A DNA stretch of 40,947 nucleotides from the NCBI GenBank assembly GCA_947383215.1, contig CANDCP010000026.1, positions 1-40,947 of the forward strand, in the 5' to 3' direction. This document shows, in pieces, positions 34,877-40,947 of this stretch. The notes under the pieces were generated by a model, which was not told where the DNA came from, did not search any database, and saw only the letters and a list, made by a program, of their open reading frames with translations. The DNA is from an uncultured Roseburia sp. GTDB taxonomy: Bacteria; Bacillota; Clostridia; Lachnospirales; Lachnospiraceae. A program made the translations under genes and the position numbers. Each line of letters begins with the position of its first letter. Positions within the stretch are counted from its first letter, which is position 1.

Positions 34877-35290
34877 AATCGTGTCCCCCTGTCAAAAAAT
34901 TTATACTGTTTCCCTGATTCACGGATTCGGACGCAAAAATCATTTGGACAAAACCGACGACCTTTTGACTTCCGAATCATTTACAATAAAAGCCTATATA
35001 ATATTATCGACATAAACAGGGCAAAAATCAACCAAAAAAACAGGGTGAAAGAAAAATATCTCTCACCCTGCGGCGCAGCGCGGCCGTTAAGCGAACTTAT
35101 GGAAACGCTTATTTTACCCTGCCCTTCTCCGCGCTTACGGTTCACCGCCTGATTAAACTCAACGAACCGCAACTGCCAATACCCTGCAAAATAATTCTTC
35201 ATCGCCTGCGCGTAAGCGCTCGGCAAAAATCTCCTTGCACGATCCGGCCTCATATAAAAGGCGGAAAAGCCATATGCCCTGTTTGCCGCC
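34877..35290. other. 414-bp intergenic region with two terminators
   Basis: No gene with good support. It contains two minus-strand terminators (35257-35292 and 35034-35070) about 190 nt apart, so a short transcript could end at the second. An open frame at 34981-35253 (minus, 90 codons, hydrophobic C-terminus) runs straight through the second terminator; its best internal start has only a weak ribosome binding site. I see no known RNA family. Confidence 0.5.
35034..35070 (-). terminator. Strong intrinsic terminator
   Basis: CAGGGTGA pairs with TCACCCTG (35041-35070) and is followed on the minus strand by seven T residues (35040-35034). It is a second terminator beyond the one after the ABC transporter operon. 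Confidence 0.85.
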
Positions 35291-35292
35291 TT
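35250..35292 (-). terminator. Terminator of the amino-acid ABC operon
   Basis: AAGGCGG with adjoining AAA pairs with TTTCCGCCTT around the loop, beginning at the stop codon of the ATPase gene, and is followed by TTATATG on the minus strand. Confidence 0.6.
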
Positions 35293-36034
35293 ACAGTACC
35301 TTGGAAAGAAAATCGCATAGCCTTGGATTTTTCGGATTCGCGAAAAACTCCTCCGGCGTATTTTCTTCCTGTATCTGTCCGTCGTTGATAAACATCACGC
35401 GGCTTGCAACCTCTCTCGCAAATCCCATCTCGTGCGTCACCACCGCCATGGTCATGCCGTCCGCCGCCAGCTCTTTCATCAACTCCAAAACCTCTCCGAC
35501 CATCTCCGGATCGAGCGCCGAGGTCGGTTCGTCAAACAGCATCACGTCGGGATTCATGGCTAACGCCCTCGCAATCGCGATTCGCTGCTTTTGTCCGCCC
35601 GAGAGCATTGCAGGATAAGTGTCCGCTTTTTCCAAAAGCCCGACGCGCTCTAATAGTTCGTCGGCTCTCTGCGACGCCTGTTCTTTACTCATAAGCCCGG
35701 TCTGTACCGGCGAGAGCATAATATTTCCTTTTACCGTGTGATTGGGAAAGAGATTAAACTGTTGAAATACCATCCCGATTTTCTGACGCATTTTATTGAT
35801 ATCGACCGACTTATCGGTGATATCCGTCCCCTCGAACAAAATTACGCCGCCGCTCGGCTCCTCCAGCAAATTCAGGGAACGCAAAAATGTAGACTTGCCG
35901 CAGCCGGACGGCCCGATAATCGCGACAACCTCCCCCTGACAGATCTCCGTTGAAATCCCGTCCAACACATTGTGGTCTCCAAACGATTTGCGCAAATCTT
36001 TTACCTGAATCAAAATCTGTCCCTTACCGCTCAT
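35291..36034 (-). CDS. Polar amino-acid ABC transporter ATPase
   Basis: The cytoplasmic ATPase of a GlnQ/HisP-type uptake system, 247 residues. Walker A is [16 protein letters not shown], the Q-loop is [12 protein letters not shown], the signature is [15 protein letters not shown], Walker B is [15 protein letters not shown] and the switch His is in [13 protein letters not shown]. All catalytic elements are intact. The start overlaps the permease gene by 11 nt and has GAGGACGA upstream. The substrate is determined by the binding protein and cannot be read from this subunit. Confidence 0.95.
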
Positions 36035-36710
36035 TCGTCCTCAACCTCTCTTCCAATTTATGTACGCCCGCGGTCAGAAGCATCACGAGCAGCAGATAAA
36101 TGACCGCCACGCCGATAAGCGGCATAAACGGCTCATACGTCCCGCTTCGGATGATATCGCCCCCGCGCGTCAAATCCATTATTCCGATGTATCCGCTGAC
36201 CGACGTCTCCTTCAGCAGCGTAATAAACTCATTTGCCAGCGCAGGAAGCACGTTTTTAAATGCCTGGGGCATGATGATAAGCTTCATGGTCTGTCCGTAG
36301 TTAAGCCCAAGGCTTCTGCCCGCCTCAAACTGCCCTTCATCCACGGACATAATACCGGAACGGACGATCTCGGCCACATATGCCGCCGAGTTCAGACCGA
36401 ACGCAATCGCCGCCACCACAATTTTATTGCTCAGGGTTGTCAATATAATATAGTACATGATCATAAGCTGAATTACCGTCGGCGTCCCCCGGATGACGGT
36501 CAGATAAACGCGGCAGACGGCGTTTAAAACCGTAAGCCCGCCGTGCTTATCGTGCGTAGAGCGCACCATGGCAATCAAAAATCCCAGGATAATCCCGATG
36601 ATTACCGCCAATAGCGTAATCAATAAGGTATTGCCGAACCCTTTGAGCAAATACATATAGCGGTCATCTTCTATAAAATTCTGTTGGAATTTGTTTATCA
36701 AAGTATCCAA
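36024..36710 (-). CDS. Polar amino-acid ABC transporter permease
   Basis: A 228-residue membrane subunit of the His/Glu/Gln/Arg permease family with about five helices. The opening [24 protein letters not shown] and the cytoplasmic loop [25 protein letters not shown], which contacts the ATPase, are typical. It probably forms a homodimer because only one permease gene is present. The start is a TTG at 36710, with GGAGGT about 6 nt upstream. It lies 41 nt after the binding protein gene and overlaps the ATPase gene. Confidence 0.93.
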
Positions 36711-36751
36711 AACGTACCTCCGTCACTGACATCCGCCAGATTTCTCCGTGC

Positions 36752-37591
36752 CTATTTCTTTCTTACAATCATCACCTGACGCGCTGTCGCATACGTATCC
36801 GTAAAGTTGATATTTTCTAATCTGTCCTCTGTCACGGTCATTCCCGCAGCGCCAAAATCGGCCTTGCCGGACTGTACCGCCGCGATAATCGCGTCAAACT
36901 CCATATCCTCTATTTTCAGTTCGTATCCCAGCTTATCACAGATCGCTTTTGCAAATTCCACGTCGATTCCCGCAAATTCACCGCCCTTATAAAACTCATA
37001 CGGCTCAAACGCCGCGTTCGTCGCCATAGTCAGCGTTCCGTTCGACCGGTCGGCGTCCGCCGGGGATTCATACGGGCAGGTTCCCTTCGTATCGTCGCCG
37101 ATATAATTTTTCACAATCTGATCGTAAACGCCTTCCGCCTTCAACTCCGCAATCGCCTGATTAAACTGCTCCGTCAAATCCGTATTCTCTTTTGCAATGC
37201 AGATTGCGTACTCCTCGTCCGCAAACGCCTCGTCAAGAATCATAAGATCGTCATTTTTCTCGACAAACGCTTTGGCCGGCTGCTCGTCGATAATCACGAC
37301 GTCCGCTTTGCCCTGCTTTAACGCCTGAACCGCGTCCGCGCCCTTGTTGTAGCGCTCTACGGTCGTCTCTTTCGTCTTGCCGTTATCCTCGGTTGACGCC
37401 GCTTCATTGTAATTGTCCGCCTCGTCCGTCGCATAGATGTCGCCGGTCGTCCCAAGCTGCACCGCAATCGTCTTTCCCTGTAAATCATCCGCGGAAAAAA
37501 CGGTATTTGTCGGCGCCGACGAGCCGCATCCTGCCGCTGAAAGCATTGTAAGTGACAGCGCAAGTGTTAAAAACTTTTTCATACTTTTCAT
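36752..37591 (-). CDS. ABC substrate-binding lipoprotein, apparently circularly permuted
   Basis: A 279-residue lipoprotein (signal MKSMKKFLTLALSLTML, lipobox SAAGC with Cys22) of the SBP_bac_3 family, with its halves in reverse order. Residues about 36-166 are what is normally the second half (DLQGKTIAVQLGTTGD, ADAVQALKQGKADVVIID, ELKAEGVYDQIVKNYIGDD). A Cys-containing linker (167-184) follows. Residues 185-279 are what is normally the first half (GTLTMATNAAFEPYEFY, GIDVEFAKAICDKLGYELK, AVQSGKADFGAAGMTVTEDR), ending VMIVRKK, exactly where DLKGK usually begins. The start has AAGGAGG; the ATG at 37621 does not. The three genes form one operon. The ligand is probably a polar amino acid. Confidence 0.92.
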   Translation of the reverse strand: MKSMKKFLTLALSLTMLSAAGCGSSAPTNTVFSADDLQGKTIAVQLGTTGDIYATDEADNYNEAASTEDNGKTKETTVERYNKGADAVQALKQGKADVVIIDEQPAKAFVEKNDDLMILDEAFADEEYAICIAKENTDLTEQFNQAIAELKAEGVYDQIVKNYIGDDTKGTCPYESPADADRSNGTLTMATNAAFEPYEFYKGGEFAGIDVEFAKAICDKLGYELKIEDMEFDAIIAAVQSGKADFGAAGMTVTEDRLENINFTDTYATARQVMIVRKK

Positions 37592-37611
37592 GATTCCATC
37601 CTCCTTGGTTC

Positions 37612-37627
37612 GGTTAATCATTTAACC
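37612..37627. promoter_or_regulatory. Palindromic operator candidate
   Basis: GGTTAA-TCAT-TTAACC is a perfect 6-4-6 inverted repeat between the promoter and the ribosome binding site of the transporter operon, covering about +12 to +27. Another GGTTAAA half-site lies just upstream of the -35, near 37680. A repressor bound here would block transcription. The regulator is unknown. Confidence 0.45.
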
Positions 37628-37645
37628 ATTGACAATAATGGAGAA

Positions 37646-37674
37646 ATTATATCACAATTTCGTACAAATCACAA
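37646..37674 (-). promoter_or_regulatory. Promoter of the amino-acid ABC operon
   Basis: TTGTGA (37674-37669), 17-nt spacer and TATAAT (37651-37646) preceded by TGA as an extended -10, on the minus strand. Confidence 0.7.
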
Positions 37675-37705
37675 GCTTTGGTTAAATTTGAGCTTTCACC
37701 ATTTT

Positions 37706-39838
37706 TTACAGGTCATAAAAATCAATTGCAAAAAGCGCTTCCCCCGCTTTTATTTTCCCCTCTCTCAACAGCCTTATCTTTTGATTTGCCCCAACTTCCG
37801 TGCACAACACAGGAGAAGCCAGCGACGGCGCGTGTTCTTTCAAATAATTGATATCCAGCTGTATCATCGGTTCTCCCTTCTTTACCTTCTGCCCGTTTTC
37901 CACAAACACCGCAAATCCTTTTCCTTCCAGTTTTACCGTGTCAATTCCGATATGAATCAAAAGGTCAATACCTGTGTCCGTCCGAAAGCCGACCGCATGC
38001 TTTGTGTCGAATACAAAACAGACCTCCCCGTCCTCCGGCGCCTCTATAACCGCAGCTTCCGGCGTGACGACCGCCCCGTCTCCCATCATCCGCGCCGCGA
38101 ACGCCTCGTCCGGCGCCGTCGACAAATCGGCCGCCATGCCGCTGATCGGACTTGAGATCGTTACCGTCTTTACAAGCTTTCCCTCCGCCTGCGCATCCGG
38201 CGTATCCGCTTTAACCGCGCCGATATCCGATGCGGTGTATTCTTCGTCTTTTGCCGTCTCCAGATAGGCCTCAAGATTTGATTTTATTACCGTAACGCGC
38301 GGACCGTAAATAACCTGAACGCCGTTTCCCTTGCGCACTACCCCGGAAGCCCCGGTCGCCTTTAACCGGCCGTCGCTTACCAGCTCCGACTTTCTTACCG
38401 TACAGCGCAGCCTCGTCGCGCAGCAGTCCACGTCTGATATATTCTTCTTGCCTCCAAGCCCTTCGCAGATCGCCCTCGAAAGCGCATCCTCGCCGCCTTC
38501 TGCCTGCGAGGCGCCTTTCTTTGCTTCAACGTCGCTTCTCCTGTATAACTTCACCTCGCTGTTATCGTCTCTTCCGGGCGTCTTTAAATCCAGCTTACGA
38601 ATTAAAAACGCAAAGAGAAAATAATATACGACAAAGTATCCGATTCCCACAAACACAATCCAGATCCAGTTTGTCTTTGCATTTCCCTGAAGAATGCCGA
38701 ACAAAAACATGTCGATAAGACCGCCGGAAAAGGTCATTCCGACGCCCACTTCAAAGACATGCATCAGCATATAGGCCAGCCCGGCAAACACACAGTGAAT
38801 CCCATACAGTAACGGTGCGACGAACAAAAACGTAAACTCGATCGGCTCTGTGATCCCTGTGATCATAGACGTCAACGCCGCCGACAAAAGCAATCCTCCG
38901 ACCGCCTTTTTCTTCTCGGGCTTCGCGGTCTTATACATGGCAAGCGCCGCTCCCGGAAGGCCAAAAATCATAAGCGGAAACTTTCCCGACATGAATCTTG
39001 TCGCGGATACCGCAAACCGCTCTACCGTTGGATCGGAAAGCTGCGCAAAAAAGATGTTCTGCGCCCCTTCAATTGTCTGTCCCGCAACTTCCAGGGTTCC
39101 GCCGACAGCAGTCTGCCAGAACGGAAGATAAAAGACATGATGCAGACCAAACGGAATCAAAAGGCGCTCCATCAATCCATATACCCAGGTTCCCACATAG
39201 CCGGAATTTAACACCACGTCGCCGACTACATAGATTCCGTTTTGTATGACCGGCCAGATATAATACATTAAAATTCCTACGCCCGTATACACAAGGGCGC
39301 ATACAATCGGAACAAACCTTGTGCCTCCAAAAAAAGACAACACCTGCGGCAGCTCGATTTTATAATACCTGTTATGCAGCGCAGCGACGCCAAGTCCCAC
39401 CAAAATTCCGCCAAATACGCCCATCTGCAGCGAGGTGATTCCGACAACCGAGGCTGTCGCCCCCTCCAGCATATTTTCGGAACCGCCGTGAATCGTAATC
39501 ATTGCCCCGATGGACGCATGCATAATAAAGAACGCAATTGCCGCGGCCAGCGCAGCCACTTCCTTTTCTCTCTTAGCCATACCGATCGCAACGCCCATCG
39601 CGAATATAATCGGCAAGTTTGCAAAAACAATATTTCCGGCCTCGTTCATAACGCGAAAGATTGCGTTAAATACCGTCCCCGGACCAAGAACCCCGTAAAG
39701 TCCATATGTCTCAAGCATCGTCTCATTTGTGAGAGAGCCCCCGACTCCCAACAACAACCCCGCAACGGGAAGAATCGCAATCGGAAGCATAAACGATCTT
39801 CCCACACGCTGTAACACACCAAAAATCTTATCTTTCAT
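37706..39838 (-). CDS. PTS transporter EIICBA, glucose/maltose family
   Basis: A 710-residue phosphotransferase permease in EIIC-EIIB-EIIA order. EIIC (about 1-415) has ten or so helices and the sugar-site motif GITEPIEFTFLFVAP. EIIB (about 445-530) has its phospho-Cys at residue 473 in DVDCCATRLRC. EIIA (about 565-710) has His614 in TKHAVGFRT and the phosphorylated His629 in LLIHIGIDTVKL. The EIIB motif DCCATRLRC is more like the alpha-glucoside/maltose branch than plain glucose (DACITRLRV). The start at 39838 has AAGGAGAGG. All three domains are complete, so no separate EIIA is needed. Confidence 0.93.
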   Translation of the reverse strand: MKDKIFGVLQRVGRSFMLPIAILPVAGLLLGVGGSLTNETMLETYGLYGVLGPGTVFNAIFRVMNEAGNIVFANLPIIFAMGVAIGMAKREKEVAALAAAIAFFIMHASIGAMITIHGGSENMLEGATASVVGITSLQMGVFGGILVGLGVAALHNRYYKIELPQVLSFFGGTRFVPIVCALVYTGVGILMYYIWPVIQNGIYVVGDVVLNSGYVGTWVYGLMERLLIPFGLHHVFYLPFWQTAVGGTLEVAGQTIEGAQNIFFAQLSDPTVERFAVSATRFMSGKFPLMIFGLPGAALAMYKTAKPEKKKAVGGLLLSAALTSMITGITEPIEFTFLFVAPLLYGIHCVFAGLAYMLMHVFEVGVGMTFSGGLIDMFLFGILQGNAKTNWIWIVFVGIGYFVVYYFLFAFLIRKLDLKTPGRDDNSEVKLYRRSDVEAKKGASQAEGGEDALSRAICEGLGGKKNISDVDCCATRLRCTVRKSELVSDGRLKATGASGVVRKGNGVQVIYGPRVTVIKSNLEAYLETAKDEEYTASDIGAVKADTPDAQAEGKLVKTVTISSPISGMAADLSTAPDEAFAARMMGDGAVVTPEAAVIEAPEDGEVCFVFDTKHAVGFRTDTGIDLLIHIGIDTVKLEGKGFAVFVENGQKVKKGEPMIQLDINYLKEHAPSLASPVLCTEVGANQKIRLLREGKIKAGEALFAIDFYDL

Positions 39839-39862
39839 GGCCTCTCCTTTTCTCCTGTTTTC

Positions 39863-39893
39863 TATGTTCCATAGGATATTAAAATCTATTATC
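39863..39893 (-). promoter_or_regulatory. Weak promoter candidate of the PTS gene
   Basis: On the minus strand TTGCTT followed after 17 nt by TAATAT lies roughly 25 to 60 nt before the ATG. The match is modest. No antiterminator-binding hairpin is seen in the short leader. Positions are approximate. Confidence 0.25.
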
Positions 39894-39944
39894 AGTATAA
39901 GCAAAAAAGTCCGTCCGCACTCATAAATACTTTAAAAATTGCGC

Positions 39945-40005
39945 AAAAACAGCGGAAACCCTTGATTTTCTAAGGATTTCCGCTATTTTAAACAAATGAG
40001 ACATC
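39945..40005 (-). repeat. Imperfect copy of tRNA-Lys 3' end plus terminator
   Basis: About 47 of 61 positions (counted by eye) match 40624-40682, including TGAGACATC, the end of tRNA-Lys. Within it AGCGGAAA pairs with TTTCCGCT (39951-39984) and GTTTTTG follows on the minus strand, so it may still terminate transcription. Similarity stops right after the tRNA end. Confidence 0.6.
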
Positions 40006-40181
40006 CCATCCATTTTGTAACCTATTGCACTTTCAGATTGCAAATGATAATAACTTTATCTTCATACAAAATGCTCCGCATATCCCACACAAAATGTTTT
40101 TGATTATAATATTTCTGTTTAGGAAAGTTAATATATTTTCTTCTATTTCTAACATAAAACCAAAAACATTTATTAATACAG

Positions 40182-40210
40182 TTGATTTTCAGATTCAGAA
40201 ATGTTATATT
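40182..40210 (+). promoter_or_regulatory. Promoter of the antitoxin RNA
   Basis: TTGATT (40182-40187), 17-nt spacer and TATATT (40205-40210). Start of transcription expected near 40217. No open reading frame follows before the terminator. Confidence 0.6.
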
Positions 40211-40236
40211 ATAGAAAAGGAGCAACCGCCCACAAA

Positions 40237-40256
40237 GTGGTTAGCCTCCCAGATTG
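40237..40256 (+). repeat. Long-range inverted repeat, arm 1 (toxin 3' UTR)
   Basis: The complement of 40428-40447 with a few mismatches. In the toxin message it lets the 3' end pair with the 5' leader; in the antitoxin RNA the same strand carries the anti-ribosome-binding-site sequence. Confidence 0.65.
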
Positions 40257-40264
40257 ACTATGAT

Positions 40265-40308
40265 AAGCCTACCTGAACCGCCAAGTACAAGGTAGGCTTA
40301 TTTATTTT
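40265..40308 (+). terminator. Terminator of the antitoxin RNA
   Basis: AAGCCTACCT pairs with AGGTAGGCTT (40265-40299), followed by ATTTATTTT on the plus strand. The tail overlaps the toxin stop codon on the other strand. On the minus strand there is no T-tract, so the toxin message probably reads on past it. Confidence 0.85.
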
Positions 40309-40403
40309 CGCCTGTTGTTCCTATTATCCAAATAGGCAAGCAATGCAATCAGGAAGTTACCGCCCAAAAATAGCAGGCTTAAAATATCATATGTATTTTC
40401 CAT
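40302..40403 (-). CDS. Holin-like type I toxin (33 residues)
   Basis: A very short membrane peptide: MENTYDILSLLFLGGNF, then IALLAYLDNRNNRRK. It has one transmembrane segment and a basic tail, and matches the pattern of the putative holin-like toxin group (TxpA/Hol_Tox). Such peptides insert in the membrane and stop growth when overproduced. Ribosome binding site GGGAGGTGG lies 6 nt before the ATG. In the message this site can be masked by GCCTCCC 17 nt upstream (40434-40440). An ideal promoter precedes it and an antisense RNA overlaps its 3' end. Toxicity here is inferred from the family. Confidence 0.8.
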   Translation of the reverse strand: MENTYDILSLLFLGGNFLIALLAYLDNRNNRRK

Positions 40404-40427
40404 CTGCACCACCTCCCATCTTCCGTG

Positions 40428-40447
40428 AAGTTTGGGAGGCTCACCAC
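40428..40447 (-). repeat. Long-range inverted repeat, arm 2 (toxin leader)
   Basis: Read on the minus strand this is GTGGTGAGCCTCCCAAACTT. It can pair with the 3' UTR arm (40237-40256) or, through GCCTCCC, with the toxin ribosome binding site, so the leader can exist in alternative folds. Confidence 0.6.
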
Positions 40448-40474
40448 CTTGTATCACGACTGCTCCTGTGAAAA

Positions 40475-40503
40475 ATTATAGCATACATGAAATTATCCGG
40501 CAA
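40475..40503 (-). promoter_or_regulatory. Toxin promoter
   Basis: TTGCCG (40503-40498), 17-nt spacer, TATAAT (40480-40475) preceded by TGC as an extended -10. Start of transcription near 40468 gives a leader of about 65 nt. Confidence 0.75.
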
Positions 40504-40615
40504 TCTGATTTTCCAGCCCAGCCAGACACAGGAAAGCCAATAAGCCTGCGGGCCCCTTTACCGGATGGCGCTTGCAGGGCAACCAGAAATTGTAGTCAAG
40601 TGTAATCAAAATACT

Positions 40616-40660
40616 TTTGAACACAAAACAATGGGAACCCTTGAAAATCAAGGATTCCCA
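40616..40660 (-). terminator. Terminator of the tRNA operon
   Basis: TGGGAA.CCTTGA pairs with TCAAGG.TTCCCA (40632-40660, two arms with one mismatch) and TTGTTTTGTGTT follows on the minus strand. It lies 13 nt past the end of tRNA-Lys. Confidence 0.8.
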
Positions 40661-40682
40661 CTCATTCAAACAATGAGACATC
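40624..40682 (-). repeat. tRNA-Lys 3' end plus terminator (second copy of repeat)
   Basis: The intact copy of the sequence repeated at 39945-40005, in the same orientation. The two copies bracket about 620 nt that contain the toxin-antitoxin module. Confidence 0.6.
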
Positions 40683-40746
40683 GGGGATTCGAACCCCGGA
40701 CAACTTGATTAAAAGTCAAGTGCTCTGCCAACTGAGCTAATATCCC
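40674..40746 (-). tRNA. tRNA-Lys (UUU)
   Basis: A 73-nt cloverleaf on the minus strand. Acceptor GGGATAT pairs with ATGTCTC (two G-U pairs), the D arm has AGCTCAGTTGGCAGAGC, the anticodon loop CTTTTAA is held by ACTTG/CAAGT with anticodon TTT, and the T arm is CCGGGGTTCGAATCCCCG. CCA is not encoded. Last gene of the cluster. Confidence 0.96.
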
Positions 40747-40777
40747 ATAATTTTGTCGTTCAGCTGCGCTTTGAAAA

Positions 40778-40849
40778 CTGGGCTAGCTGGATTCGAACCA
40801 GCGAATGCAGCAGTCAAAGTGCTGTGCCTTACCGCTTGGCGATAGCCCA
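40778..40849 (-). tRNA. tRNA-Gln (UUG)
   Basis: A 72-nt cloverleaf. Acceptor TGGGCTA pairs with TAGCCCA and the discriminator is G, as usual for tRNA-Gln. The anticodon stem CAGCA/TGCTG closes loop CTTTGAC with anticodon TTG. The T arm is GCTGGTTCGAATCCAGC. CCA is not encoded. Confidence 0.96.
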
Positions 40850-40894
40850 TTATTTTTACAGTAGATACTTAAAAACAGAACATACCGCATCAAA

Positions 40895-40947
40895 GGTGGA
40901 TACAGGGATTCGAACCCTGGGCCTCCAGAGCCACAATCTGGCGCGCT
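40895..40947 (-). tRNA. tRNA-His (GUG), 5' end outside the window
   Basis: Partial tRNA cut by the right edge. The anticodon stem CCAGA/TCTGG closes loop TTGTGGC with anticodon GTG. The T arm is CCAGGGTTCGAATCCCTG and the 3' end is TATCCAC with discriminator C, the tRNA-His identity element. It is the upstream member of the His-Gln-Lys cluster within this window. Confidence 0.92.

Follow-up and report, generated by a model that had tools for sequence, protein, structure and literature searches.

The permuted receptor gene and its operon

The DNA analysed here (the window) is a stretch of 40,947 nucleotides from a Roseburia sp. contig, and the gene under study encodes a permuted lipoprotein of the SBP_bac_3 family (P0001, below the window SBP). 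Its open reading frame lies on the minus strand at positions 36752–37621 and gives 289 amino acids from an ATG located in frame 30 bases upstream of a second possible start (MKSMKK at 37591), which yields 279 amino acids. The first-pass annotation had placed the gene at 36752–37591 with no strand given; these coordinates are correct for the 279-residue reading, which all residue numbers below follow.

The protein begins with a lipoprotein signal peptide (37526–37591) ending at the lipobox SAAGC, whose cysteine is residue 22 by direct reading and a lipobox scan. Segment HMMs and an alignment with GlnH delimit the next two parts: segment C1 (residues 31–113; 37253–37501), the bulk of lobe 2, whose usual place is in the middle and which here comes first, and segment C2 (residues 114–167; 37091–37252), which holds the second crossover and the C-terminal part of lobe 1 and usually comes last. 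A linker (residues ~168–183; 37043–37090), delimited from a table of linkers and the consensus of near relatives, connects the former C-terminus with the former N-terminus. Segment N (residues 184–279; 36755–37042), placed by Pfam, phmmer and segment HMMs, is usually first and here last; it comprises the N-terminal part of lobe 1, the first crossover and the first lobe-2 strand, and ends in RQVMIVRKK just before the stop codon. We refer to N-C1-C2 as the standard order, to the window's C1-C2-N as ROT1, to C2-N-C1 as ROT2, and to an order cut within C1 as ROT3.

The genes for a cognate permease of the polar amino acid type (36024–36710, BPD_transp_1, Pfam E-value 4.4e-20) and a cognate ATPase (35291–36034, sharing 11 bases with the permease gene) come after the SBP gene on the same strand, forming a three-gene operon with the parts of a polar amino acid transporter. 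The top NCBIfam equivalog models for the permease are cystine permease and GlnP, and the nearest models for the ATPase are GlnQ and TcyN, all under their cut-offs. Just upstream of the SBP gene, at 37646–37674 on the minus strand, a consensus scan alone picked out a promoter-like site, TTGTGA-17-TATAAT with a TG ahead of the second hexamer; the scan returned 5 sites in the region against a shuffled mean of 3.0. Directly upstream of the operon lies a minus-strand gene resembling a PTS permease (37706–39904, identified by eye from its reading frame), and three tRNA genes in a row, also on the minus strand, occupy 40674–40947, the last one truncated by the window's right edge. One other relative was found in the same genome; it has the standard order and is 29% identical over the N part.

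The two halves of the SBP_bac_3 domain stand in swapped order

The first-pass annotation had read the SBP_bac_3 halves as swapped and predicted two partial, reversed profile matches, and this is what Pfam gives. The SBP_bac_3 model (PF00497) matches the window SBP with a whole-protein E-value of 6.4e-35 and 120.2 bits, against a curated cut-off of 26.4, in two stretches of reversed order, the stronger of which aligns residues 187–278 with model positions 1–92 of 132. A phmmer search of PDB chains bears out the swap: Thermotoga maritima ArgBP (6svf) is matched at an E-value of 4.3e-42 in explicitly reversed order, residues 179–278 falling on chain positions 4–104 and residues 35–164 on 114–227. 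No single collinear match from N to C was found, and we have filed the protein as a permuted variant of its family.

The break itself had been put exactly at the inter-lobe crossover, and here the earlier reading needs correction. In the alignment with Escherichia coli GlnH, RQVMIVR at the C-terminal end of the window SBP corresponds to GLLVMVK, and VFSADDLQGK near its N-terminus to VKSVKDLDGK. We take GLLVMVK to be the first strand of lobe 2 in GlnBP, lying beyond the crossover, with the hinge at residues 85–89 and 181–185. Judged by this alignment, the ROT1 cut is in the lobe-2 loop after that strand, about ten residues past the first inter-lobe crossover. The Pfam model Lig_chan-Glu_bd, which represents S1 of ionotropic glutamate receptors (iGluRs), ends at the same cut (residues 228–277 on model positions 63–112 of 115), in a match of 24 bits that stays under the Pfam cut-off of 30.

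The gene is under purifying selection and keeps its ligand residues

Compared with a 95% identical copy in an independent record (L033), the window SBP shows a dN/dS of 0.037 over 279 codons at a dS of 0.75. The gene is thus functional and under strong purifying selection. By part, the ratio is 0.043 for spacer, C1 and C2 together, 0.033 for the 17-codon linker and 0.010 for N, with few sites behind the short stretches. Two further comparisons (L047 and L004) gave no overall ratio, their synonymous sites being saturated.

The ligand residues recognised in the window SBP are R257, T252, D102, F195, F232, T48, T49 and Q45. Each of the eight predominates in every one of the three orders, at 79–100% (33 standard, 78 ROT1 and 30 ROT2 units, with L119_1 labelled as ROT1 in this count). 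Their roles are presumably those of GlnBP, in which Arg and Thr hold the carboxylate, Asp the ammonium group, and aromatic residues form a clamp. Together with the low dN/dS and the conserved operon, these residues suggest that the first-pass annotation was right in proposing a functional permuted receptor.

As for the substrate, the best NCBIfam matches are the Lys/Arg/Orn receptor and GlnH models, all under cut-off. No riboswitch or T-box that might serve as a clue was found by Rfam in positions 34900–40947 at an E-value of 0.1, and no Rfam family reached its gathering score in the 8 loci scanned among the 15 public ones of the window's order. Neither NCBIfam nor Rfam fixes the ligand.

Permuted relatives are frequent in the window's family and occur beyond it

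In what follows, L-numbers denote fetched loci and G-numbers genomes; orders were classed with N, C1 and C2 segment profiles built from P0001. A scan of public genome contigs returned 22 loci, of which 15 (L033–L047) are ordered like the window SBP. Their records belong to Lachnospiraceae, Roseburia, Robinsoniella or Blautia, the closest being L033, from an uncultured Roseburia sp. The remaining seven are not permuted in the window's manner and include two Ruminococcus sp. loci of standard order (L048 and L049), 67% identical in the N half. As the same order recurs in an independent 95% identical copy and in 15 of 22 public loci, it is neither a chance product nor an assembly error, and the search for homologues proposed earlier has produced relatives of the same order in number.

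The genome figures that follow are counts made by match pattern and reading rather than a census. In the window's own family, at least 47 of 150 genomes (its own included) carry a permuted form, all 47 having been read and classified: 32 have the window's order in a match of nearly full length, among them the divergent, fused proteins of G080 and G012, and the other 15 have the second order, ROT2. The statement that almost all family members have the opposite order therefore fails in this taxonomic family. At class level, the window's order occurs in at least 25 of 391 genomes (own included, all 25 read), and three more, G199, G346 and G508, contain it within long or tandem chains; a further pattern, that of ROT2, is seen in 35 of the 391, and all 16 of those read were confirmed. 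At phylum level 33 of 299 genomes, most of which lie outside the class, were matched at an E-value of 1e-20. The nine phylum loci that were read comprise single genes of the window's order (G613, G630), a permuted tandem (G667), a contig-end piece that is probably a permuted tandem too (G577), a permuted permease fusion from the window's family (G262), a standard tandem (G819) and three cases of the fourth order, ROT3 (G629, G764, G810). Such permutations are easily missed, because a local profile match identifies the protein correctly with its halves in either order.

Rotations, fusions and tandems

All three rotations of N-C1-C2 are present, plus a fourth order cut within C1. Among 140 SBP reading frames (the fetched loci minus five duplicate loci) we counted 58 unfused ROT1, 14 permease-fused ROT1, 33 standard (one fused) and 30 ROT2; the rest are three double ROT1 tandems fused to a permease, a triple tandem (L108) and a broken frame (L071). 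A permease and an ATPase follow 57 of the 58 unfused ROT1 genes, the 58th (L119) being recognised as cut within C1, and were seen behind 28 of the 30 ROT2 frames (L055–L069, L089, L090, L093–L096, L100–L105, L111, L112 and L143), which have linkers of their own kind. Two separate families of genomes contain the ROT3 cut, which falls within C1 behind the GTTGD helix. It was assigned by sequence in L148 and L119 (L119:1-837), by segment order and tail length in L149, and in L150 by segment order plus a match to L148 at 64% over nearly the full length. A ROT3 query against 249 phylum genomes gave near full-length matches only in G629 and G764 among the matches listed, and matched G613 over residues 28–232.

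Mapped on GlnBP by alignment, the three cut points all appear to lie in lobe 2, and no lobe-1 cut was seen among the orders found in searches keyed on the query's C2–N junction. Since such a query finds lobe-1 cuts less readily, this bias is an observation within the present search.

Standard-order receptors occur in tandem in L153 and permuted ones in L070, L106, L108, L110 and L152, and adjacent copies of the SBP gene are found in L009 and L135. Some of these loci have an architecture of their own. In L070 (3106–6537) a single chain of 1143 residues reads ROT1-ROT1-permease-ATPase, half an importer in one gene, and in L108 (2203–5190) three permuted receptors in tandem are joined to one permease in 995 residues. 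The tandem receptor-permease gene of L071 (741–3077) is interrupted by a stop codon, and the permease gene of L049 (5713–6460) was read as two frames.

The order has changed repeatedly

For the receptor trees the segments were re-aligned in one common order. A quick tree of 141 units implied 10 order changes; it left out L107, L054, L108, L071 and partial frames, whose segments do not come in complete threes, and labelled L119_1 as C1-C2-N. Dropping long-branch and near-identical units, as well as L119_1, reduced the set to 112 for a more careful tree, which implied 9 changes against a shuffled mean of 46.7 (0 of 200 shuffles as low). Its 5–95% bootstrap ranges, from a bootstrap not quite settled, were 5–6 for ROT1, 4–4 for ROT2 and 9–10 for the standard order, and its starred branches alone force 2, 4 and 5, respectively. 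A partner tree was built from the permeases and ATPases, which are not permuted, using 109 pairs (three units had no partner) and a simpler model without mixture. It implied 11 changes, with ranges of 6–8, 4–5 and 9–11 for ROT1, ROT2 and standard, and starred branches forcing 3, 4 and 6.

A single clade of all ROT1 units was rejected by the AU test on both the receptor tree (p = 0.019) and the partner tree (p = 2.0e-4), and so was a single clade of all ROT2 units (p = 0.008 and 1.8e-4). For smaller groupings the trees differ. The partner tree rejects the small ROT2 groups as one clade (8 rows, p = 0.002) and likewise the main and second ROT1 groups (49 rows, p = 0.0016), whereas the receptor tree rejects neither (9 rows, p = 0.064; 50 rows, p = 0.10). 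Likeness of linkers agrees with the receptor tree, and thus the main and second ROT1 groups (the latter L031, L032, L137 and L139) may share one origin, as may the ROT2 groups of L056 and L089. We also considered whether Ruminococcus L048 (with L049) had reverted from permuted to standard order, and we do not claim this: on the careful receptor tree L048 falls inside the main permuted clade (100/94), but on the partner tree its neighbour is L017 (92/90), and excluding it from the permuted clade is not rejected by the AU test (p = 0.248). The standard-order L121 groups with the ROT2 proteins L095/L100 on both trees. One-clade tests do not tell whether an order was gained several times or gained and later lost, and operons can exchange SBP genes. 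The order has nevertheless changed repeatedly in Clostridia, while some of the 9–11 changes may be fewer events.

Structure models, linkers and anchor spacers

The mature window SBP, modelled with an alignment of 49 ROT1 sequences, reached a pLDDT of 93.0 and a pTM of 0.86, and on these scores the two lobes would close within one chain. In a Foldseek search of the PDB, its best match by E-value was GlnPQ's SBD1-SBD2 tandem, where a C half stands ahead of an N half in one chain (250 columns, rmsd 19.9). By sequential alignment, no match exceeded a query TM of 0.49 among the best 50 of 1189. Such a low value is expected, because the chain is permuted, and is no proof of the fold by itself. A ROT2 model (L089, 30 sequences) had a pLDDT of 88.5 including the signal peptide and a pTM of 0.75. 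Many of its 50 listed matches, ligand-bound binding proteins for Gln and Arg, superpose on it at 1.6–2.2 Å across about 170 columns, with a TM by target mostly of 0.62–0.71; the other listed matches, open forms among them, lay at 2.3–8.3 Å. Going by segment order, the matched columns would be N and C1.

The linker from C2 to N measures 15–27 residues in 72 single ROT1 units (20 in 36 of them, 19 in 18), the value of 27 coming from L119_1, later seen to be cut within C1, and 16–24 residues in 30 ROT2 units (17 in 21). The main ROT1 group and the window's near relatives share the motif DDTKGxxPYxSPxDxDRSNG. By eye, the linkers of the second ROT1 group (L032, L139) are partly like those of the main group, and those of far ROT1 groups (L084–L088, L091 and L098; L092 and L099) are unlike. 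Among ROT2 proteins, L056 has a linker similar to that of the L089 group; L095/L100 and the large group have different ones. The L095/L100 linker starts with EKYIPSG and ends in TTVEEGKL or TTIEEGKL. Their standard-order sister L121 has the C-terminal tail EKYIPSEG and an N-terminal spacer ...SITIEKGKL, and the linker resembles both by eye, a hint that it may be the fusion joint of a standard tail and a standard spacer.

The spacer from lipid cysteine to core has a median of 12 residues in ROT1, 10 in ROT2 and 20 in standard proteins, as plain descriptive values over related rows. The lipobox scan found no lipobox in 4 of 57 unfused ROT1 proteins (L012, L040, L045, L046). In the permuted receptor of L042 (3110–4573) the lipid cysteine is separated from the fold by a spacer of about 230 residues, made of acidic TEAVTEAAETE-like repeats, as if to distance the receptor from the membrane.

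Interpretation and alternatives

We read the window SBP as a natural and working circular permutant, the amino-acid-binding lipoprotein of an ABC importer for polar amino acids that three genes encode; the sequence and model evidence makes this reading probable (about 0.87). The chain would adopt the standard two-lobe clamshell fold, with the linker, mostly of 17–20 residues in relatives, bridging the two old ends in lobe 1, and the new ends would sit in a lobe-2 loop beside the hinge. With its ends placed there, geometry suggests that the lipid anchor, or a fused permease, holds the receptor by lobe 2 and not by lobe 1. Otherwise it would act like standard members, capturing a polar amino acid between the lobes and passing it to the permease.

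Most likely, the order arose by tandem duplication or fusion of SBP genes followed by loss of the outer pieces, and such re-cutting would have happened more than once in Clostridia, at more than one lobe-2 loop. The first-pass annotation had proposed duplication with loss of the outer halves. The tandems, the adjacent gene copies and one ROT2 linker are consistent with it, but no direct intermediate was seen in the window's lineage; likewise, a search for tandem intermediates found the standard-order tandem of L153 and several permuted ones, but no standard-order tandem in the window's own lineage.

It is plausible, at roughly even odds, that the permutation is neutral, a by-product of duplication without effect on transport, as tandems occur, the ends lie close together and lobe-2 loops tolerate cuts. 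This idea is compatible with a working permuted receptor, the sole difference being whether the order matters. On one hand, ligand residues and operon are the same across orders, SBP gene copies lie side by side in L009 and L135, and close kin such as L121 and L095/L100 differ in order on both trees. On the other hand, the cuts were found in lobe 2 and none in lobe 1, a pattern which C2–N junction searches favour, and permuted proteins have the shorter anchor spacer by the descriptive medians above. That Clostridia re-cut the receptor repeatedly because moving the tether from lobe 1 to lobe 2, near the hinge, is useful seems to us rather doubtful. If it were so, closure of a clamshell held at lobe 2 by a short spacer or a permease would pull on the transporter, much as in the iGluR channel.

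The order might alternatively work only in a domain-swapped oligomer, C1-C2 of one chain pairing with N of its neighbour as within tandem arrays. Arrays of C1-C2-N-C1-C2-N do hold a standard N-C1-C2 unit at their centre, and the top Foldseek match of the ROT1 model is a chain of two receptors. However, most permuted frames that were read are single units, the pTM of 0.86 belongs to a monomer model, and the 15–27-residue linker of the 72 single units suffices for an intramolecular join, so that we regard this as improbable. SBP_bac_3 folds have been reused as sensors and dehydratases, and models of the kinase StpK7 and the transglycosylase MltF match far under cut-off; that the protein is an SBP-derived sensor or enzyme is nonetheless very improbable, with permease and ATPase genes directly behind the SBP gene, single permuted receptors fused to the permease in 14 of 140 frames, and amino-acid ligand residues kept. 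An assembly chimera or frameshift artefact, conceivable in a draft genome of 77 contigs, is refuted by independent assemblies that show this order at 95%, 78% and about 60–70% identity and is at odds with strong purifying selection across the whole gene.

The permuted amino acid receptor stands as a natural, frequent and recurrent case, with at least three cut points in one lobe by alignment and near standard-order relatives as controls. Such matched natural pairs let one ask whether the choice of the tethered lobe matters, and how permutations arise and persist.

Comparison with known systems

The window SBP resembles GlnH, ArtJ and T. maritima ArgBP in family, ligand residues and an operon with a PAAT-type permease and an ATPase, and its lipobox is that of Gram-positive SBP_bac_3 members. 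Unlike them, it has the order C1-C2-N instead of N-C1-C2, ends in lobe 2, and a linker in place of the old ends.

Among the papers listed by full-text searches of literature outside subscription journals, the only natural permuted ABC receptor that we recognised is TpMglB-2, the others being engineered, mostly biosensors; nothing on permutation of SBP_bac_3 was found among the same papers. Amino acid receptors of the SBP_bac_3 family are, we assume, of fold type II. TpMglB-2 (Tp0684) of Treponema pallidum is reported to be a natural, permuted, lipid-tethered receptor for glucose, named "Type Ic / Cluster Bc", whose authors consider adaptation to tethering as a possible reason for its topology (PMC4990184). 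It shares with the window SBP a natural origin, lipid tether and circular permutation, but belongs to Type I/Cluster B, has its permutation in the N lobe and crosses the hinge a fourth time (PMC4990184). In contrast, the clostridial cuts lie within lobe 2 and would keep two crossings, and Pfam, NCBIfam and PDB matches all place the window SBP in SBP_bac_3 rather than in Type Ic / Cluster Bc.

Fusions of the GlnPQ type (SBD1-SBD2, PDB 6h30) also carry the receptor covalently ahead of the permease, sometimes in tandem, as in L153. Their receptors have the standard order with the permease on lobe 1, whereas in the permuted fusions (L016, L019, L024 and others) the permease follows the first lobe-2 strand.

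Finally, S1 in the ligand-binding domain of iGluRs (S1/S2; GluR0) ends where the ROT1 cut falls. The iGluR channel is inserted at the end of S1. The window SBP is not an iGluR, as it has no channel domain and is followed by a separate permease gene. The iGluR arrangement is S1-channel-S2, while that of the permuted fusions is S2-S1-membrane domain, the latter an ABC permease and not a channel. If the shift of the tether to lobe 2 is indeed useful, these S2-S1-membrane fusions would be convergent with iGluRs, whose membrane domain attaches at the same loop.
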